Shown here piece by piece: positions 584 to 17,406 of a DNA stretch of 21,009 bases (position 1 is the stretch's first letter; each line of letters starts with the position of its first letter). This stretch comes from a bacterium (GTDB lineage Bacteria; JALSQH01), in the NCBI GenBank assembly GCA_026985515.1, contig JALSQH010000009.1, forward strand, positions 1-21,009, given 5' to 3'. Below the pieces are notes generated by a model. It did no database searches. It saw nothing but the letters and a program-made list of their open reading frames with translations, and was not told the DNA's origin. The position numbers and the translations under genes are program-made.

Positions 584-1087
584 CTATTTCTTTGCTGCTT
601 CCACAATCATTTTTATCAGGCGAGGCATGGCGGAAGGATCCGTTCCGGTAAAGAGATTCCCGTCAGCTTCAACATCCTTGCCAGTATAGATGGCACCTGC
701 GTTTATGAGGTCATCTTTTATGGCGTAGTATCCCGCAATCTTTTTGCCTTTCACTATTCCAGCTGATATTAAGACCCACGGTCCGTGACAGATTGAACCA
801 ACGATTTTTCCACTGTTGTAAAAATCTCTCACAAATTTTAAAACCTTTTCATATCTTCTCAGCCTGTCTGGTGCGTATCCACCCGGGATAAAGAGAATAT
901 CGTAATCATCCGGAGAAACCTCATCTATTGATTTGTCTGATTTGTGCGTCATGCCTTTTTTACCTTTAAATGTTCCTTTCTGTGGAGAGATCACATCCAC
1001 CTGCCATCCTTCTTCCTGAAATCTGTAATATGGGTAGAGGAATTCAACATCCTCAACGAATTCTTCAATGAAAATGGCAACCTTCAT
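584..1087 (-). CDS. PfpI/DJ-1 superfamily protein (intracellular protease/deglycase-like)
   Basis: This 167-residue protein matches the length and layout of PfpI/YhbO proteins, whose best-known member is Pyrococcus protease I. Visible features are an N-terminal EDVEFLYPYYR segment, a GGYAPDR turn at 69-75, and the nucleophile elbow SICHGP with Cys100 followed by His101. It ends with KDDLINAG and a short helical tail. In PfpI the catalytic triad uses Cys100, His101 and Glu74 from a neighbouring subunit. Here position 74 is Asp, a conservative change. Family members are reported as peptidases, or as glyoxalase/deglycases that repair glycated proteins, so the exact activity is open. The start ATG overlaps the meaB stop in an ATGA motif (1084-1087), indicating translational coupling. 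It is the last gene of the mutase operon, perhaps protecting against reactive aldehydes or damaged protein. Cytoplasmic; no signal peptide. Confidence 0.88.
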   Translation of the reverse strand: MKVAIFIEEFVEDVEFLYPYYRFQEEGWQVDVISPQKGTFKGKKGMTHKSDKSIDEVSPDDYDILFIPGGYAPDRLRRYEKVLKFVRDFYNSGKIVGSICHGPWVLISAGIVKGKKIAGYYAIKDDLINAGAIYTGKDVEADGNLFTGTDPSAMPRLIKMIVEAAKK

Positions 1088-2043
1088 TTTTCTTCCTCCT
1101 TCAGGAGTTCTCTGGTGATTTTTTCACCCAGTGTGATGGGATCTACCTCACCATTTTCCATTTTTGAAATAAGGGATTCCATTTTCTCCTGAATTTTCCT
1201 GTAAATTTTTTCCTTGATCAGACTCGTAATTGTATTTTCAAATTCCTTTTCTAACTGCATTCTGATTTTTTCTTTTAATTTACCCGATTTTTTCAGGTAT
1301 TCAAAATGATTATCAATGGCAACAGCAAGTTCTTCAATTCCTTCCCCTTTTGTGGCTATTGTTTTTATCACCGGTGGTTGCCACTCTTTATCTTTTATGC
1401 CCGCCATTTCAAGCATAAATTCAATTTCTTTTACAAGTCTGTTTGCTTCAGGTCTGTCAGCTTTGTTTACCACAAATATATCAGCAATTTCAAGTATTCC
1501 TGCCTTGATTGCCTGAATATCGTCTCCAAGGCCCGGCACAAGGACGACCACTGAAGTGTGGGCGAGTCCGATTATTTCAACTTCATCCTGACCCACTCCC
1601 ACAGTTTCCACAATTATTTTTTCTTTACCCATTGCATCAAGGACTTTTACCATTTCCCATGCTGATTTTGAGAGTCCTCCAAGGTGGCCCCTGGTTGCCA
1701 CTGATCTGATAAACACCTCTGGATCTGTGCTGTGGCTCTGCATTCTGATTCTATCACCTAAGATTGCTCCACCTGTGAAGGGACTTGTCGGATCCACTGC
1801 AATTACACCAACTTTCAGAGACTTCTTCCTGTAAAGTTCAATCAGTTTTGAAACCAGTGTACTTTTCCCTGCCCCCGGGGCTCCCGTAATACCAATAATG
1901 TGAGCTTTCCCTGTGTAGGGATAAATTTTCTTCAGGATTTCTCTTGCTTCTGGAAGTTCATCATCTATCATTCTAAGTGCTCTTGCAGTGGCCACATCAT
2001 CACCACTGAGGATCTTTTCAATGAGAGAGCTATCCAACTGCAA
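1084..2043 (-). CDS. meaB: MeaB/ArgK-family GTPase, chaperone of B12-dependent acyl-CoA mutase
   Basis: This 319-residue protein is of normal length for MeaB. A helical N-terminal region precedes a G domain with Walker A GAPGAGKST at 54-62, a VDPTSPFTGGAILGDR switch segment, a VETVGVGQDEVE stretch and the guanine-specificity motif NKAD. The C-terminus is helical and charged, as in family members that dimerise through it. MeaB proteins bind acyl-CoA mutases, gate loading of adenosylcobalamin and protect or exchange inactivated cofactor, using GTP. It lies 9 bp downstream of the small mutase subunit and overlaps the PfpI gene by 4 bp, so it is clearly part of the same transcript. MeaB-like chaperones serve both methylmalonyl-CoA and isobutyryl-CoA mutases (the latter sometimes called MeaI), so its presence does not decide the mutase substrate. 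Confidence 0.93.
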   Translation of the reverse strand: MQLDSSLIEKILSGDDVATARALRMIDDELPEAREILKKIYPYTGKAHIIGITGAPGAGKSTLVSKLIELYRKKSLKVGVIAVDPTSPFTGGAILGDRIRMQSHSTDPEVFIRSVATRGHLGGLSKSAWEMVKVLDAMGKEKIIVETVGVGQDEVEIIGLAHTSVVVLVPGLGDDIQAIKAGILEIADIFVVNKADRPEANRLVKEIEFMLEMAGIKDKEWQPPVIKTIATKGEGIEELAVAIDNHFEYLKKSGKLKEKIRMQLEKEFENTITSLIKEKIYRKIQEKMESLISKMENGEVDPITLGEKITRELLKEEEK

Positions 2044-2052
2044 CTCCTTTGA

Positions 2053-2466
2053 TTATTTTCTCTTGTGGCGAGGTTTTACGTGTTTTTTGACCCATTCGAT
2101 TGTTTCGCTGACAGGAGTTCCCGGAGTGAAAATCTCAGCCACCCCCTGAGATTTCAGAAATGGGATATCATCATCAGGAATAATACCTCCACCAAAAACA
2201 ATTATATCATCTGCTCCTTTTTCTCTGAGCAGTTTTATAACTGCAGGCATCAGGGTATTGTGTGCTCCAGATAGTATGGAAAGACCAATTGCATCTACAT
2301 CCTCCTGAATGGCTGCATTCACTATCTGTTCTGGAGTCTGGTGAAGGCCTGTGTAAATCACTTCAAAGCCTGCTTCTTTCAGTGCCCTTGCAATGATTTT
2401 TGCTCCTCTGTCATGTCCATCAAGTCCAGGTTTCGCAATTAGTATCCTTACTTTTTCTTCTGGCAT
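2053..2466 (-). CDS. icmB: B12-binding small subunit of acyl-CoA mutase (IcmB-like)
   Basis: This 137-residue protein is a complete cobalamin-binding domain. It carries the DxHxxG motif as DGHDRG at 16-21, where His18 would be the lower axial cobalt ligand. LSILSGAH and [10 protein letters not shown] segments follow, which line the nucleotide tail pocket. The length equals that of stand-alone mutase small subunits such as IcmB (about 136 residues), whereas many methylmalonyl-CoA mutases have this domain fused to the catalytic barrel. The gene starts 11 bp after the large subunit, with AGGAGG just before the ATG. Together the two would form the heterotetrameric, adenosylcobalamin-dependent carbon-skeleton mutase. 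The symbol is chosen because the large subunit carries isobutyryl-CoA-mutase-type substrate residues. Split archaeal methylmalonyl-CoA mutases have a similar small subunit, so this chain alone does not settle specificity. The C-terminus ends in a basic tail (RHKRK). Confidence 0.85.
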
Positions 2467-2477
2467 CTGTTTCCTCC

Positions 2478-4151
2478 TTAGAAGTACGCTGGATCTCTGT
2501 ATTCTCCAAAAGCTTCCTTTAATGTGTTGATTATCTCTCCTTCTGTGGCATATTCTCTGACGGCATTTATTATGTAGGGCATCAGATTTTCTGAGTAATC
2601 CTCAGCAGCTTCCCTTAACAGCTTCAGGGCTTCTTTCACCTTTGCGTTATTTCTATCCCTCTTTACCTTTGCCAATCTTTCCTTTTGTTTTTTTTCAAGA
2701 TCATCGGGTATTTTAAGTATGGGTATGGGAACATCTTCATCAATTACATATTTGTTTACTCCTACAATTATTTTTTCACCTTTTTCAACCTGCAGCTGGT
2801 AGTGATATGCTGCATCCTGTATCTCCTTCTGAGGATATCCCAATTCAATTGCTCTCAGCATCCCTCCCATTTCCTCAATTTTGTTTATATACTCCCAGGC
2901 TTTTTCTTCCATTTCATTGGTCAGTTTTTCAATGAAGTAACTGCCACCAAGTGGATCAATGGTATTGGGAATACCGCTCTCGTAGGCAATGATCTGCTGA
3001 GTCCTAAGTGCAATGGTAACTGCTTCTTCAGTTGGTAGGGCATAGGTTTCATCCATGGAATTGGTGTGGAGAGATTGTGTACCCCCCAGAACAGCAGATA
3101 GAGCCTCAATGGCCGTTCTGATAATATTGTTGTAAGGTTGCTGCGCAGTTAATGAACACCCAGCAGTCTGTGTATGAAATCGCATCAACCATGAAGCTGG
3201 ATTTTTCGCTTTAAATCGTTCTTTCATTATTTTTGCCCACATTCTTCTTGCTGCTCTGAATTTTGCAATTTCTTCAAAGAAGTCCATGTGGGCGTCAAAA
3301 AAGAAAGATAAACGGGGAGCAAAAGAGTCAACATCAAGACCTTCTCTGGTAAAATAGTCAACATAACTTATTCCATCCATTATGGTGAATGCAAGTTCCT
3401 GAACAGCAGTTGAACCAGCTTCTCTAATATGATACCCTGAGATGGAAATCGTATTCCATCTGGGTACATGCTCACTTGCATAGGCAACTATGTCTCTTAT
3501 TATTCTCATGGAAGGTTCGGGCGGGTATATCCATGATTTTTGGGCAATATATTCTTTGAGGATGTCGTTTTGAATTGTACCACCTATCTTATTGGAAGGA
3601 ACTCCCTGCTTTTCCGCCACAACAATGTACATAGCCCATAAAATGGCTGCTGGTGCGTTGATTGTCATTGAGGTTGTAACTTTATCAAGGGGTATCCCTT
3701 TAAACAGTGTTTCCATGTCTGCAAGAGTGTCAATAGCTACACCACATTTTCCCACTTCTCCTGTAGCCCTGGGATCGTCTGAGTCAACCCCCATAATTGT
3801 TGGCATGTCAAAAGCAACTGATAAACCTGTTTGACCCTGTTGAAGAAGGTAATGATAACGTTGATTTGTCTCTACAGCTGTTCCAAAACCTGCAAATTGT
3901 CTCATGGTCCAGAGTCTTCCTCTGTACATATTTGGATAGATGCCTCGTGTAAAAGGATATTCTCCCGGAAAACCAAGATCCCTCATGTAATCCAGATCTG
4001 CTATATCTTCTGGTGTGTAAATTTCCTTTATTTCGTGATCAGAAATTGTTGAAAATCTTTCCATTCTTTCCGGATGTTTTTCTATGTGTGGCTTGAGAAT
4101 CTTTTCTTCCCATTCTTTTTTTGCTTTTTTTATTCTTTCAATATCGTCCAT
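2478..4151 (-). CDS. icmA: Acyl-CoA mutase large subunit, isobutyryl-CoA-mutase type (usually annotated methylmalonyl-CoA mutase)
   Basis: This 557-residue protein is the TIM-barrel catalytic subunit without the B12 domain, close in size to IcmA. Family motifs include [21 protein letters not shown] with Gln194, [11 protein letters not shown] with His241, [17 protein letters not shown] and DPLGGSYF. The key observation concerns specificity. Methylmalonyl-CoA mutase uses Tyr89 and Arg207 to hold the substrate carboxylate; isobutyryl-CoA mutase has Phe80 and Gln198 instead. Here the equivalents are Phe86 (in RQFAGF) and Gln204 (in YIAQKSW). The 118-residue spacing is identical in all three, so the alignment is secure. 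The expected reaction is isobutyryl-CoA to n-butyryl-CoA by a radical rearrangement. The gene lies 12 bp after the adenosyltransferase, with AAGGAG before its ATG. I am sure of the family and fairly sure of the ICM-like pocket. Activity on related acyl-CoAs is possible. Confidence 0.85.
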
Positions 4152-4163
4152 TTTCCTGCTCCT

Positions 4164-4721
4164 TTAAAATTCAATTCCCTCCCTTGCATCCACCCCCTGG
4201 TAGTAGTAATGTTTTATCTCCTTCATCTCTGTTACCAGATCAGCTTTCTCTATGAGTTCTTTCGGTGCTCCTCTACCTGTTATGACAAGCTCCATATTTT
4301 CAGGTTTGCTTTCCACAATTTTCATCATATCTTCAAGTGAAATTAAATTAAACATGTAAGCCACATTCAGTTCGTCAAGTATAAGAATATCTACTTCATT
4401 TCTCTGCATAATTTCCAGTGCCCGTTCGACTCCTTTTTTTGCAAGTTCTATATCTTCTGGTCGTGGATTTTTGGGGTTCACGAAAGCAGGTCTTCCAAAG
4501 GGCTCAATGGTGAAGAGATCACCAAATTTCCTTGCAGCTTTCCATTCACCATATTCGCTCCACGCCATTTTTTCAGTGCCTTTTCCCTTTAAAAACTGAA
4601 TCATGTGAACTTTAAAACCGTGTCCGAGTGCTCTGAAGGCCAGGCCAAGGGCTGCTGTAGTCTTACCTTTGCAATCCCCAGTGTAGACCTGAATATATCC
4701 CTTTTTGATTTTTTTACTCAA
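4164..4721 (-). CDS. cobO: Cob(I)alamin adenosyltransferase, CobA/CobO/BtuR type
   Basis: This 185-residue protein has the family's N-terminal P-loop variant GDCKGKTT at 15-22, followed by ALGLAFRALGHGFKVHMIQFLKG. A DILILDELNVAY segment and VITGRGAP come later, all diagnostic of CobA/BtuR enzymes. It transfers the adenosyl group of ATP to cob(I)alamin, making the cofactor needed by the mutase encoded just downstream. Mutase operons more often carry the unrelated PduO-type enzyme, so the pairing is mildly unusual. No other B12 synthesis gene is in the window, which suggests salvage or local cofactor supply. The start is TTG at 4721, supported by GGAGGT with a 5-nt spacer at 4727-4732. It is the first gene of the operon, behind a sigma70-like promoter. 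Cytoplasmic. Confidence 0.9.
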   Translation of the reverse strand: MSKKIKKGYIQVYTGDCKGKTTAALGLAFRALGHGFKVHMIQFLKGKGTEKMAWSEYGEWKAARKFGDLFTIEPFGRPAFVNPKNPRPEDIELAKKGVERALEIMQRNEVDILILDELNVAYMFNLISLEDMMKIVESKPENMELVITGRGAPKELIEKADLVTEMKEIKHYYYQGVDAREGIEF

Positions 4722-4996: not shown

Positions 4997-5656
4997 ATGA
5001 AAGTACTTGATAGGGAAGATCGAGTTACGAAATCACTTAAGGAAAAAATTTTTCAGATGGATAGAAGGGAGCTTCTTACTAAAATGGGTTACCATAATCT
5101 GGAGAGAGGAAATTACACTCTCGAACGATTTTTAAAAACCCCCAGCCTCTACAGATGGCTTGAGAAAGGTAATTATGATTTTCTCTATACTTCGGGGGAA
5201 TTTGTAAAGAAAGTGGCAGAAGTTGTGGGATTAAAAAGAGAAGAAGTAGAGAAAGCAATCCGTTTTGCAAAGGATGAGATGAAGAGGATAAGAAGCTTGA
5301 AAACACCACATATCTATGTAGATACTCATTTTGTAAGAAAAACTGAGCCAGTTTTTGTACTGGCTTTTACTGAAGGATTGAGAAATATAGTTCTGGACAA
5401 AGAAGAATTTGCATATTTATCTCTGGAAGAAGCCCTTAAAAAAGTGGGGGAGTTTGTCAGAAATCATTATATCCAGAATGATGGGTATCTTGAAGTCTGG
5501 GGAAAAATTTACACTTATGTTTATTATCATGTTGATGGCAACAAGTACTATTTTGATCCCAGTGGGAATTTAATACATGGTGATGTCAAAGTTTACTATT
5601 CAAAAGCCTTTTTGAGAATTGGCAATAAAGAGGTATCCCACGGAAATAATGAATGA
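4997..5656 (+). CDS. Hypothetical protein, unknown function
   Basis: This 219-residue soluble protein has no signal peptide or membrane segment. I do not recognise it as a named family. Residues about 20-100 are predicted helical and basic (MDRRELLTKMGYHNLERG, then FLKTPSLYRWL, GNYDFLYTSGEF, and a KREEVEKAIRFAKDEMKR helix). The block at 103-180 is beta-rich and aromatic (PHIYVDTHFVRKTEPVFVLAF, then LEVWGKIYTYVYYHVDG), ending near YYFDPSG at 184-190. The regular pattern of aromatics and glycines suggests a conserved two-domain fold, perhaps a helical binding domain plus a small beta-domain. The ATG has GAGGA 6 nt upstream. It starts a plus-strand pair with the gene at 5739 and sits between two unrelated minus-strand metabolic units, so it looks like accessory cargo. 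No function is claimed. Confidence 0.75.
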   Translation: MKVLDREDRVTKSLKEKIFQMDRRELLTKMGYHNLERGNYTLERFLKTPSLYRWLEKGNYDFLYTSGEFVKKVAEVVGLKREEVEKAIRFAKDEMKRIRSLKTPHIYVDTHFVRKTEPVFVLAFTEGLRNIVLDKEEFAYLSLEEALKKVGEFVRNHYIQNDGYLEVWGKIYTYVYYHVDGNKYYFDPSGNLIHGDVKVYYSKAFLRIGNKEVSHGNNE

Positions 5657-5667
5657 GTATACTTATT

Positions 5668-5742
5668 ATGCTGCGGGTGTTGGGTAAAGATGAAATATTA
5701 TGCTTTGAAAAAGAAAAAAATGAACTGGAGGATAGGGAATGA
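5668..5742 (+). other. 24-codon micro-ORF overlapping the next start codon
   Basis: An ATG at 5668 opens 24 codons, ending with a TGA at 5740-5742 that overlaps the ATG of the following gene in an ATGA motif. The C-terminal half is highly charged (EKEKNELEDRE). No clear ribosome site precedes it. The strong GGAGGATAGGG just before the stop serves the downstream gene. It may be a leader peptide for translational coupling or a chance frame. Confidence 0.25.
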
Positions 5743-6446
5743 ATGAGAATTTCTTTGGAGATGAAAGGGATTTCAGGAAATATCTTTTATTGAAAACATT
5801 GTTGGAAAATAATCGTAGCAAGAAGTTCCTGGTAGCATGGTATCTCACAGAGGAAGAGTCTAATGAGAAGAAAAACAGATGGAGTTATTTAGATAGTAGC
5901 GCTTATATAAATCTTGATGCGGAATTATCAAGCTGGTTAAAAGATTGTGTCAAAAAGAACGATACATCTAAAATCAATTGTATTGAAAATAAATTTCTTT
6001 ATTTTTCTTACAACATAACTTTTTATACTGAACCAGTTCCGAAATGGAAAAAAGAGAGGGAACGATGGTTTAACCAGCTTAAGGATAAGGCTCAGGAAAG
6101 TGGCGTAGTTTTTCTGGATCCGGATACAGGAATAAATTTTGACTCAAAGCGTAATTCAATAAAACATGTGTACATAAATGAGATAGTAGAACTATGGGAG
6201 AGTGGAAAATCATTGATTGTATTTAATTATTTTCCACGTATTAATCATGAAATTTTTGTTTATGGAACCATGATGGCATTTTTGGTGAGAATACCTGACG
6301 CAATTGTGAAGAGTATCTATGAAGATAAGGTTGCCTATTTTTTTATTTTGCAGAGAAATGATGGAAAAATTTTTGAAAATTTGAAAAAAGGAATAGAAAA
6401 TATGAGCAACAGGGTTTTTAAAATAGCTGAAATTAACCTGTGTTAG
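5739..6446 (+). CDS. Hypothetical protein with GDxRDFxKYxLL and FLDPDTG motifs
   Basis: This is a 235-residue soluble protein. The N-terminus reads FFGDERDFRKYLLLK (5-19), followed by an AWYLTEEES segment. VVFLDPDTGI lies at 123-132, and KHVYINEIVELWESGKSLIVFNYFPR at 142-167. From memory this resembles a widespread, uncharacterised family with an N-terminal GDxxDYxKYxLLR block and a central FxDPDxG motif, often found in variable regions. The DPD-G loop after a beta-strand recalls the substrate or cofactor loop of Rossmann-type enzymes such as methyltransferases, but the glycine-rich cofactor motif is not evident. An enzymatic role is therefore speculation. GGAGGATAGGG precedes the ATG by a few bases. 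The gene's 3' end overlaps the convergent molybdopterin gene by 14 bp. Codon use is notably A/T-rich compared with the metabolic neighbours, consistent with acquired DNA. Confidence 0.75.
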   Translation: MNENFFGDERDFRKYLLLKTLLENNRSKKFLVAWYLTEEESNEKKNRWSYLDSSAYINLDAELSSWLKDCVKKNDTSKINCIENKFLYFSYNITFYTEPVPKWKKERERWFNQLKDKAQESGVVFLDPDTGINFDSKRNSIKHVYINEIVELWESGKSLIVFNYFPRINHEIFVYGTMMAFLVRIPDAIVKSIYEDKVAYFFILQRNDGKIFENLKKGIENMSNRVFKIAEINLC

Positions 6447-8829: not shown

Positions 8830-10797
8830 ATGGGAGAATTTGAATTTGGAGGAGGAATTGTATGGAGACCCACTGAGGAATATATTGAAAAAAGCAGGCT
8901 TAAAGAGTTTATGGATATTCACGGGATAAAGACCTGGGATGAGTTGTGGGAAAAATCGGTAAAGGAAACGGAGTGGTTCTGGAAAGCAGTTCTGGATTTT
9001 CTGAAAATTGAGTTTTACGAACCCTATGAGAAAATCGTTGATTTTTCTAAAGGCTATCCATGGACCAGATGGTGTGTTGGGGGGAAGATGAATATTGTCC
9101 ATAATTGTCTTGATAAGTGGATTGGAACACCCAGAGAGAATAAGGTTGCACTTATCTGGGAAGGCGAGGAGGGAACTGTCAGAAAATTGACATACAGGGA
9201 ACTGTGGCGGGAAGTTAACAGGGTGGCAAATGGTCTGAAAAAGCTGGGGCTCGGTAAAGGAGATGCAATTGGTCTTTATATGCCGATGATTCCTGAAATA
9301 GCAGTGGCGCTTCTGGCAATAGTTAAAATTGGAGGAATTGTACTTCCTCTATTTTCAGGTTACGGTGCCAAAGCAATAAGTACAAGACTGGCTGATGCTG
9401 ATGCAAAGGCACTCTTTACCGTTGATGGAGCGTACAGAAGAGGGAAAATAGTTCCAATGAAGCCCACGGCTGATGAGGCACTTAAGAATGTACCCACCAT
9501 TGAAAAGGTGATCGTTTACAGAAGGACAAATATTGAAGTTAACATGAAGGATGGCAGAGATATTTTCTGGGAAGATTTTCTGAAAGATACTTCTGAGGAA
9601 TTTGAAACTGAAAAAACTGATGCTGAGGATGTGTTGATGATTATTTACACGAGTGGGACCACAGGTAAACCAAAAGGTGCAGTTCATATTCATTGTGGTT
9701 TCCCGATAAAAGCTGCACAGGATATGGCTCATGGACTTGATCTGCACGAGGATGACATACTTTACTGGCTCACAGATATGGGATGGATGATGGGGCCATG
9801 GGAAGTGTTTGGAACCCTGTTACTTGGGAGTACATTTGTCCTTTACGATGGGGCCCCTGATTATCCTGATGTTGACAGGTTGTGGAGTCTTGTAGAGAAA
9901 CACAGAATAACTGCTCTGGGAGTTTCACCCACTCTGATAAGGAGTCTCATGAAACATGGAGATGGACCTGTTAAAAAACATGATCTTTCATCCCTCAGAC
10001 TTGCTGGATCTACTGGTGAGCCATGGAATCCCGAACCCTGGATGTGGTTTTTCAAAACTGTTCTTGAGGGCAGAAAGCCAATCATAAATTACTCAGGTGG
10101 AACGGAGGTTTCCGGGGGAATCCTCATGGGAAATGTGATGAAGCCTCTAAAACCTGCTGCATTTTCAGGTCCTCTTCCCGGCATGTATGCTGATGTTGTT
10201 GATGAAAATGGAAATTCCGTTAGAAATCAGGTTGGGGAACTTGTGGTGAGAAAGCCCTGGCTCGGTATGACCTATGGTTTCTGGAAGGATCCAGATAGAT
10301 ACATAAGAACATACTGGTCAAGATTCAAAGATGTATGGGTTCATGGTGACTGGGCTGCAGTAGATGAGGATGGTTTGTGGTACATACTTGGAAGAAGCGA
10401 CGATGTCATAAAAGTGGCAGGTAAAAGACTCGGTCCTGCAGAGGTGGAAAGCATCGTGGTTGAACATCCAGCTGTGGTTGAGGCTGCGGCTGTGGGTGTA
10501 CCTGATCCAGTGAAAGGGCAGGTTGTGGTTGTCTTTGCAGTTTTAAAAGAGGGAGCTGAAGACAGAGAGAAGATAAAGGAGGAAATAAAAGACCTGATTG
10601 TTAAGGAGATGGGGAAGGCTCTTGCTCCAAAGGATGTACACTTTGTTTCGCAGCTGCCTCAAACACGTAATGCCAAAGTGATAAGGAGAGCAATAAGAGC
10701 TGCATATATTGGAGAGGATCCAGGAGATCTCAGTTCCCTTCTGAATCCTGAAGCACTGGAGGAAATAAAGGAACTGGGCAGGAAATACTACCGTTGA
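8830..10797 (+). CDS. AMP-forming acyl-CoA synthetase (acetyl/propionyl-CoA synthetase-like)
   Basis: This 655-residue protein has the length and layout of short-chain acyl-CoA synthetases of the ANL superfamily. An N-terminal ACAS-type segment precedes the adenylation domain. The phosphate loop YTSGTTGKPKG is at 273-283. Further motifs are GWMMGPWEVFGTLLLG, NYSGGTEVSGG, VHGDWAAVDEDGLWYILGRSDDVIKVAGKRLGP (spanning the hinge region) and TRNAK, with Lys616 as the expected catalytic lysine of the C-terminal domain. It would convert a carboxylate, ATP and CoA to acyl-CoA, AMP and pyrophosphate. The acyl pocket reads WMMGPW rather than the canonical acetyl-CoA synthetase sequence, so propionate, butyrate, isobutyrate or acetoacetate are all possible substrates. 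AAAGGAGG sits just before the ATG. A strong promoter and possible operator precede it, and a terminator-like hairpin follows. It is probably monocistronic and regulated by acyl-CoA status. Confidence 0.88.
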   Translation: MGEFEFGGGIVWRPTEEYIEKSRLKEFMDIHGIKTWDELWEKSVKETEWFWKAVLDFLKIEFYEPYEKIVDFSKGYPWTRWCVGGKMNIVHNCLDKWIGTPRENKVALIWEGEEGTVRKLTYRELWREVNRVANGLKKLGLGKGDAIGLYMPMIPEIAVALLAIVKIGGIVLPLFSGYGAKAISTRLADADAKALFTVDGAYRRGKIVPMKPTADEALKNVPTIEKVIVYRRTNIEVNMKDGRDIFWEDFLKDTSEEFETEKTDAEDVLMIIYTSGTTGKPKGAVHIHCGFPIKAAQDMAHGLDLHEDDILYWLTDMGWMMGPWEVFGTLLLGSTFVLYDGAPDYPDVDRLWSLVEKHRITALGVSPTLIRSLMKHGDGPVKKHDLSSLRLAGSTGEPWNPEPWMWFFKTVLEGRKPIINYSGGTEVSGGILMGNVMKPLKPAAFSGPLPGMYADVVDENGNSVRNQVGELVVRKPWLGMTYGFWKDPDRYIRTYWSRFKDVWVHGDWAAVDEDGLWYILGRSDDVIKVAGKRLGPAEVESIVVEHPAVVEAAAVGVPDPVKGQVVVVFAVLKEGAEDREKIKEEIKDLIVKEMGKALAPKDVHFVSQLPQTRNAKVIRRAIRAAYIGEDPGDLSSLLNPEALEEIKELGRKYYR

Positions 10798-11020: not shown

Positions 11021-12208
11021 ATGAGTAGAAGGAGAAGTGTAATTGTTTCTGCTGCCAGAACCCCGGTTGGAGCATTTCTGGGAGGACTCAGCAGTGTTCC
11101 TGCCCCAAAACTGGGAGCTGTGGCCATCAAAGAAGCCATAAAGAGAGCAGGAATTGAACCGGAAAAGGTGGATGAGGTAATAATGGGGAATGTCATTACA
11201 GGTGGAGAGGGTCAAGCACCGGCAAGGCAGGCAACTATTTTTGCAGGATTACCTGTAACCACGCCTGCAATGACAATTAACAAAGTTTGTGGCTCAGGTT
11301 TGAAAAGCATCATGCTTGCTGAGCAGATAATTGCTGCAGGGGATTCAAACATCATTGTGGCAGGTGGTCAGGAAAATATGAGCCTTGCTCCGTATGCGCT
11401 GCATAAAGCGAGAACCGGATATAGACTCGGGAATGGGGAACTGGTTGATCTTATGATTAAAGATGGGTTATGGGATGTTTACAATGATTTTCATATGGGA
11501 GAGGCGGCTGATATATGTGCTAAGGAGTGTAACATTTCCAGGGAAGAGCAGGATGAATTTGCTGCTGAAAGCTATAGAAGGGCTCTTAAAGCCATGGACG
11601 AAGGATGGTTCAAGGATGAAATAGTGCCGGTAGAGGTACCTGGAAAGAAAGGTGAAGTAATTGTGGTGGAAGAAGATGAAAGTCCCAGAAATGTTAAATT
11701 TGATAAAATTCCTAAACTAAAACCAGCCTTTACACCTGATGGTACTGTAACAGCTGCCAATGCATCATCAATTAATGATGGCGCTGCAGCTGTTGTTGTG
11801 GTTGCTGAGGAGGTGGCTGAAAAAATGAATTTGAAGCCAATGGCAAGGATAATTGCCCATGCTCAGGCTTCAACTGAACCAAAGTACTTCACGAAAGCTC
11901 CCGTCTATGCCATTAAAAAGGTTCTTGAAAAGGCTGGTATGAAAATTGAAGACATTGATCTCTGGGAAATAAATGAGGCATTTGCGGTTGTCACTCTTCT
12001 TGCCATAAGGGAACTTGGTCTTGATCCTGCAAAGGTAAATGTTCATGGTGGGGCAGTTTCAATAGGTCATCCAATTGGGGCAAGTGGAGCAAGAATTCTT
12101 ACAACTCTTCTCTATGCCCTGAAGAGGTATAATAAAAAGTATGGTGTTGCTTCGCTCTGTATTGGTGGTGGTGAAGCAGTGGCTATGATTGTGGAGAATA
12201 TTGATTAA
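11021..12208 (+). CDS. atoB: Acetyl-CoA C-acetyltransferase (thiolase)
   Basis: This 395-residue protein has the standard length of biosynthetic or degradative thiolases. The nucleophile is Cys90 in NKVCGSGLKS. GGQENMS follows, and NEAFAVV holds the active-site Asn-Glu pair. His350 lies in GGAVSIGHPIGASGARIL and the second catalytic Cys380 in SLCIGGGEAV, so the active site is complete. It condenses two acetyl-CoA to acetoacetyl-CoA or runs the reverse cleavage. Chain-length preference cannot be told from motifs; a 3-ketoacyl-CoA thiolase role is the alternative. AAACGGAGG lies 10 nt upstream of the ATG. It has its own promoter-like palindromic region and a strong terminator, so it is probably monocistronic. 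With the neighbouring synthetase and mutase it fits butyrate- or branched-chain acyl-CoA interconversion. No hydroxyacyl-CoA dehydrogenase or crotonase is in the window. Confidence 0.92.
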   Translation: MSRRRSVIVSAARTPVGAFLGGLSSVPAPKLGAVAIKEAIKRAGIEPEKVDEVIMGNVITGGEGQAPARQATIFAGLPVTTPAMTINKVCGSGLKSIMLAEQIIAAGDSNIIVAGGQENMSLAPYALHKARTGYRLGNGELVDLMIKDGLWDVYNDFHMGEAADICAKECNISREEQDEFAAESYRRALKAMDEGWFKDEIVPVEVPGKKGEVIVVEEDESPRNVKFDKIPKLKPAFTPDGTVTAANASSINDGAAAVVVVAEEVAEKMNLKPMARIIAHAQASTEPKYFTKAPVYAIKKVLEKAGMKIEDIDLWEINEAFAVVTLLAIRELGLDPAKVNVHGGAVSIGHPIGASGARILTTLLYALKRYNKKYGVASLCIGGGEAVAMIVENID

Positions 12209-16362: not shown

Positions 16363-17406
16363 ATGAGGAAAGTATGGTTTCTTGGATTTTTACTCTCTAT
16401 ATTCATCGTTACAGGGGGTTGTCGGAAAGGTAAACCTAATGCAGACTGGATTGGTAGTGAAAGATATGTTCAAAAAAGTGTTTTTGAATGTCCCTATCCT
16501 GATAGAGGAAATTTGCCATTTAAATTAGAGGCATCATCTTTCAGACATCCATCTGTAGTTAAAGAGGCGAAAAATGGGGGAATAATTGGATATTTTGCCC
16601 CTGACATTCTTTCCAATAAGAGAGGAGAATCAATCGTCCTGAAAGGAGTAATTGGATATGGAAATGGAATATCGCTTTCATCTCCTTTATCAGATGAGTA
16701 TGTCAGCGTATGGTGGTATGATGGTGAAAAATGGAAGATGATTGGAAGAACTCTGACAGATAGTGATGGAAACTACAATATAGAGGTGCCTGGCGAAATT
16801 CTTGAAAAGTGGGGAAATTACAGATTTTATGTTTTTGTTGAGGGGGATGCAACATGTACAACCCAGCTTGTTATGCAGCATCCTGAAGGTTCGAAATTTG
16901 TTATAACGGATATTGATGGGACATTGACAATCGATGATAATCAGGTCCTTTTACAGTTGCAGGATCCTTCATATATACCTCAAAGCTGGGATGGTGCTGT
17001 GGATGTGATGAATGGCTATGCCAGGAAGGGTTACTATATAATTTACCTCACTGCGAGGCCCAGGGCACTTGATCTTTTAACAAAATCATGGCTCATTGCA
17101 GAGGGATACCCGGAAGGAGCTGTTCATACTGCTACTAATTTTGTATATGGTGAATCTGCTGCAAGATACAAAACTGAATTTCTTACCCATATAGTGGATG
17201 ATTTAGGCTGGAAGATTGTCGCGGCTCATGGAAATGCTGAATCTGATATTGAGGCTTATCAAAATGCAGGTGTACCCGATGACAGAATATTCGTGATCGG
17301 GGAAAATGCAGGATTAAATGGTTCCACACCGGTCAGTAACTATAAAGATTTTATGAATTCAGATTTTTACAGAAATCTCCCTCCAGCAGAACAGCCGGAT
17401 AGGTAG
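16363..17406 (+). CDS. Lipoprotein with lipin/APP1-type (LNS2) phosphatase domain
   Basis: This is a 347-residue protein. A signal peptide runs into VTGGCR, giving a lipobox-like site with Cys20 (the -3 residue is Thr, less usual). Residues about 65-170 look like a beta-sandwich (VKEAKNGGIIGYFAP, then VSVWWYDGEKWKMIGRTLTDSDGNY). Residues 178-320 form a HAD phosphatase domain: motif I DIDGT at 183-187 (Asp183, Asp185), motif II YLTARP with Thr230, Lys270, and GNAESDIEAY near 290-299. This matches the lipin/Ned1/Smp2 and APP1 phosphatidate phosphatase group. It would act in the periplasm or at the outer membrane, removing phosphate from phospholipid or another ester. It is co-transcribed with the porin upstream (9-bp gap, AGGAGG). 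Substrate is unproven. Confidence 0.82.
   Translation: MRKVWFLGFLLSIFIVTGGCRKGKPNADWIGSERYVQKSVFECPYPDRGNLPFKLEASSFRHPSVVKEAKNGGIIGYFAPDILSNKRGESIVLKGVIGYGNGISLSSPLSDEYVSVWWYDGEKWKMIGRTLTDSDGNYNIEVPGEILEKWGNYRFYVFVEGDATCTTQLVMQHPEGSKFVITDIDGTLTIDDNQVLLQLQDPSYIPQSWDGAVDVMNGYARKGYYIIYLTARPRALDLLTKSWLIAEGYPEGAVHTATNFVYGESAARYKTEFLTHIVDDLGWKIVAAHGNAESDIEAYQNAGVPDDRIFVIGENAGLNGSTPVSNYKDFMNSDFYRNLPPAEQPDR

Follow-up and report, generated by a model that had tools for sequence, protein, structure and literature searches.

A predicted isobutyryl-CoA mutase operon with a B12-binding subunit that is probably shared with a methylmalonyl-CoA mutase encoded elsewhere

Gene content of the mutase operon and its surroundings

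The stretch of bacterial DNA analyzed here (hereafter the window) comprises 21,009 nucleotides. Its minus strand carries a run of five tightly packed genes (584-4721): successive genes lie 12, 11 and 9 nt apart, and the last two overlap by 4 nt. The first gene (4164-4721) encodes a cob(I)alamin/cob(I)yrinic acid adenosyltransferase of the CobA/CobO type (NF004637, 190 bits, cut-off 185), an enzyme that produces adenosylcobalamin, and ends 12 nt ahead of the gene for an isobutyryl-CoA-type mutase large (substrate) subunit of 557 aa (2478-4151), in which F86, A113, Q204, K205 and H241 were identified. These genes are followed by those for the mutase small (B12-binding) subunit of 137 aa (2053-2466; TIGR00640, 186 bits), the G-protein chaperone MeaB for cobalamin loading (1084-2043; TIGR00750, 377 bits) and a PfpI/DJ-1 family protein (584-1087; TIGR01382, 168 bits), the last of which shares 4 nt with the end of meaB. 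An identical gene order, including the PfpI/DJ-1 gene beside meaB, was observed in the single relative of the same family, a member of a sister genus, in which the mutase gene is interrupted by a contig end. No isobutyrate-specific pathway gene was found inside the operon.

Two plus-strand ORFs adjoining the operon (4997-5656 and 5739-6446) have zero Pfam matches. Farther along the plus strand lie an AMP-forming acyl-CoA ligase of the acetate-CoA ligase superfamily (8830-10797; NF001208, 655 bits, just below the cut-off of 657) and an acetyl-CoA acetyltransferase/thiolase (11021-12208; TIGR01930, 477 bits, over the cut-off). It is possible that the former activates the acid and that the latter catalyzes the final step of butyryl-CoA oxidation, which would tie both to the mutase. 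The window also contains a lipoprotein-like ORF (16363-17406, plus strand) with a eukaryote-named, PITPNM-type LNS2 domain (PF24694, 99 bits); its match to the PITM beta-sandwich is weak and falls below the cut-off.

Gene clusters for isobutyryl-CoA mutase (ICM) of this type have already been described, and the window operon adds a member. In Syntrophothermus lipocalidus TGB-C1, an isobutyrate isomerizer, the ICM gene cluster is Slip_0757-0760 (PMC5017805), and such clusters are also known from other prokaryotes (PMC5017805, PMC6687939). Compared by content rather than by sequence, Slip_0757-0760 equals the window operon (adenosyltransferase, large subunit, small subunit and MeaB). However, S. 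lipocalidus belongs to a different lineage, and the substrate there rests on the physiology of growth on isobutyrate, whereas the window enzyme is known from its genes alone.

Substrate residues, phylogeny and gene neighborhoods

An earlier note on this DNA had proposed that the large subunit carries Phe86 and Gln204, 118 residues apart, at the two positions that distinguish ICM (Phe/Gln) from methylmalonyl-CoA mutase (MCM; Tyr/Arg). Reading of the minus-strand ORF 2478-4151 bore out both residues and their spacing, and the columns were matched by alignments to solved structures: human MCM (PDB 2xij) has Tyr/Arg (Y/R) at window columns 86 and 204, 2-hydroxyisobutyryl-CoA mutase (HCM; 4r3u) has Ile/Gln (I/Q), and the fused ICM aligned to 4xc6 has Phe/Gln (F/Q) in the equivalent columns. 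The same two sites are given in PMC7238569, citing Jost et al. 2015, with Tyr-92 and Arg-210, again 118 apart, in an MCM. Thus, the window protein has the Phe and Gln of ICM, neither the Tyr nor the Arg of MCM (F86, Q204), and neither the Ile nor the Asp113 of HCM (F86, A113).

Among 119 mutase sequences, the window's included (a 120th row of the set is a distant beta-type paralogue and lies outside this number), 59 have F+Q, 58 have Y+R and two have I+Q, and both of the latter have Asp at position 113. Since the mixed pairs F+R and Y+Q are absent from all 119, the pairing of these residues is not due to chance. Position 205 co-varies with the pair, being Lys and sometimes Asn, His or Arg in F/Q proteins versus Gly or Asn in Y/R proteins. 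One genome (G090; loci of G090 and G197, L242-L246) holds three mutase types, namely F/Q, Y/R and I/Q with Asp113; its F/Q and I/Q genes are each flanked by their own small subunit, and the F/Q mutases of G090 and G197 have Arg at 205.

Several characterized enzymes can be compared with the window protein. HCM (4r3u) is its best PDB match, the nearest solved structure by sequence, and shares the split form, but has Ile for Phe86 and Asp for Ala113. IcmF, the fused ICM (4xc6), has F/Q in the same columns, and the same reaction is predicted for the window enzyme; unlike it, IcmF is a single chain fused with a G-protein and is ~34% identical to the window protein. IcmA and IcmB of Streptomyces cinnamonensis, which supply polyketide precursors, resemble the window enzyme in both their split large and small subunits and their Phe/Gln pair. 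The Streptomyces mutases from plasmid records, among those inspected, were Y/R only. An AlphaFold model of the large subunit has the mutase fold and matches 4r3u best (TM 0.86); its pLDDT falls below 50 at residues 68-87, so that the active-site loop holding F86 is unreliable in the model.

To separate the residues from the phylogeny, positions 86, 113, 204 and 205 were masked in a tree of 59 rows, whose root was not inferred. A single branch (SH-aLRT 98) parts the F/Q and I/Q proteins from the Y/R proteins and human MCM, and the residue labels change once, compared to 20 times in shuffles. In a FastTree phylogeny of 109 rows, the Y/R label changes twice, compared to 37 times in shuffles. Both trees leave out the characterized IcmA of S. 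cinnamonensis and the S. lipocalidus mutase. The solved HCM forms a derived branch on the F/Q side. The window protein sits within this side, and thus is not placed among proven MCMs, a position that the earlier note had named as refuting its reading; it lies outside the Y/R group that holds human MCM even with the specificity columns masked.

Gene neighborhoods were counted for 83 mutase genes at 80 named loci (41 Y/R and 42 F/Q genes). An epimerase gene lies within 6 kb of 22 of the 41 Y/R genes versus 1 of the 42 F/Q genes (p = 6e-8), and a carboxylase gene is near 15 and 3 of them, respectively. Genes for acyl-CoA dehydrogenase (p = 0.12) and adenosyltransferase (p = 0.26) are commoner near F/Q genes, neither difference being significant. 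Residues, the tree built without them and the neighborhood statistics all group the protein with mutases of the ICM and HCM types rather than with MCM, and the window gene very probably encodes an isobutyryl-CoA mutase.

Automatic annotation would favor MCM, roughly as the earlier note had expected. The family model that the protein matches is indeed named "methylmalonyl-CoA mutase N-terminal domain" (TIGR00641, 840 bits). However, the score against NF006944, the MCM equivalog, is 693.5 bits and thereby lower than that model's cut-off of 876; this model was built for the full-length fused form, and a split MCM might also fail it. Besides the TIGR00641 name, the adjoining MeaB and small subunit genes would suit an MCM. 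Nevertheless, with neither Tyr nor Arg at the substrate positions, a place outside the Y/R group in the masked tree and a separate Y/R protein encoded in the same genome, we consider it very improbable that the window enzyme is an MCM. Misannotation of ICM as MCM is already known for IcmF (PMC7764203). The split into 557 and 137 residues, which had also been taken as a sign of ICM, did not hold up as one: most Y/R relatives found are split as well, and this layout was dropped as evidence because many MCMs share it.

A narrower doubt concerns the substrate. To our knowledge, few members of the broad F/Q clade have been assayed, and an F/Q mutase acting mainly on some other branched acyl-CoA that lacks a second carboxylate (pivaloyl-/isovaleryl-CoA, 2-methylbutyryl-CoA or similar) may be envisaged. 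Crystals of the F/Q enzyme IcmF have been obtained with isovaleryl-, pivaloyl-, butyryl- and isobutyryl-CoA (PDB titles 5cjv, 5cjw, 5cju and 5cjt). Against such a substrate speak the operon content, which matches that of the S. lipocalidus cluster, and a VorB (2-oxoisovalerate) match over the cut-off in the genome, the enzyme of which would supply isobutyryl-CoA. The F/Q proteins whose function is known to us also have isobutyryl-/butyryl-CoA as substrates, and we regard a different main substrate as unlikely.

A second mutase and a single small subunit

The genome encodes a second standalone large subunit on another contig (C52:2689-4371, L140). This protein is 560 aa in length, similar to the window protein and 67% identical to it, but has Tyr/Arg/Gly in place of Phe/Gln/Lys and appears to be a split MCM. 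Neither a small subunit nor MeaB was found near its gene. Further matches include an epimerase (contig C10), an mmdA/propionyl-CoA-carboxylase-like subunit (contig C2) and ~15 acyl-CoA dehydrogenase regions. The earlier note had predicted isobutyryl-CoA metabolism instead of a propionate pathway. The window gene is of the ICM type, as predicted, but the "instead" does not stand: since the genome holds the Y/R large subunit, an epimerase and a carboxylase, a propionate pathway is encoded too, by other genes. The genome thus appears to encode a valine/isobutyrate route as well as a propionate/methylmalonate one.

In contrast to the two large subunits, only one mutase-type standalone small subunit scored over the cut-off genome-wide, that of the window (2053-2466), and MeaB was found in a single copy, in the window operon. 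A genome search with PF02310 returned the window small subunit, a MetH-like ORF of 819 aa and one weak match. In the mutase family, adenosylcobalamin is bound at the interface of the B12 and substrate domains. Because no small subunit of its own was found, the MCM on C52 probably depends on that of the window.

The same pattern is found in dozens of unrelated bacteria. Typing at the DNA level yielded 36 genomes that combine F/Q with Y/R standalone large subunits and in which further unfused types were not seen (in G157 the type of a third family match was not shown, and G119 also has a fused third protein). A single standalone small subunit was detected in 35 of them, the exception being G153, where two small subunits each adjoin their own large subunit. 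In 19 of the 35 genomes, the lone small subunit is less than 300 nt away from the F/Q gene; in four it is farther off in the same cluster, and in 12 it lies elsewhere, often with MeaB. In none of the 35 is it beside the Y/R gene. By comparison, among genomes whose only split enzyme is of the Y/R type, 12 of 23 have the small subunit immediately adjacent to the large one, versus 1 of the 36 (Fisher p = 1e-5, with positions read by hand and related genomes weighted equally). In G010 (L155), both large subunits and the lone small subunit are in one cluster on one contig. G043 encodes one F/Q and three Y/R proteins, yet one small subunit; genomes with at least three mutase large subunits (G090, G197, G115 and G025) have two or three. 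Another genome (G033; 2.5 Mb, 89% complete, 4% contamination) shows nineteen large-subunit matches, many of them fragmentary or divergent.

Could the MCM's own small subunit simply have been missed? The genome is in 268 contigs, and C52 ends 293 bases past the MCM gene. However, these 293 bases contain the apparent start of a membrane protein and no small subunit, and the search was sensitive enough to reach the B12 domains of MetH-like proteins. Moreover, the pattern persists in the single-contig genome G058 (L154/L168), and in G075 (L200/L201) and G010, where a lone B12-binding domain was found genome-wide. An assembly or detection artefact is therefore improbable.

In a test for co-evolution, F/Q and Y/R large subunits resembled each other slightly more when both came from one genome than when they came from different genomes (residual 0.91 points, reached in 1 of 10,000 permutations). 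With G+C controlled and one genome per family, this likeness is weak (p ~0.02 overall), and residues 361-470 give p = 0.016 before correction for five regions.

From the position of adenosylcobalamin between both domains and from the gene counts, an active MCM in such genomes would have to use the small subunit of the ICM, and the window B12 subunit probably serves the separate MCM as well. More generally, it seems fairly likely that one B12 subunit and one G-protein chaperone serve both ICM and MCM, with the large subunits as interchangeable substrate modules, and that this is usual where both split enzymes occur. No report of a shared small subunit was found in the open-access literature; most subscription papers could not be searched and may contain one.

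Proposed role and implications

According to our preferred explanation, the operon would produce an adenosylcobalamin-dependent ICM composed of the F/Q large subunit and the small B12 subunit, loaded by the adjoining adenosyltransferase and MeaB. Isobutyryl-CoA, probably derived from valine via a 2-oxoisovalerate:ferredoxin oxidoreductase encoded elsewhere, would be interconverted with butyryl-CoA, the substrate and the direction of flux both being predicted, and butyryl-CoA would enter beta-oxidation. The lone small subunit and MeaB would also serve the Y/R large subunit of the MCM encoded elsewhere. We hold this explanation as a whole, an ICM operon whose small subunit and MeaB also serve the MCM, with considerable confidence.

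Two substrate residues sort an often misnamed family cleanly, in agreement with phylogeny and neighborhood, and genomes annotated with MCM only can therefore be re-read for valine/isobutyrate metabolism. If the small subunit is shared, the rule of a small subunit next to its large one becomes unusable for assigning function, and a bacterium deprived of its ICM operon should lose propionate metabolism as well.
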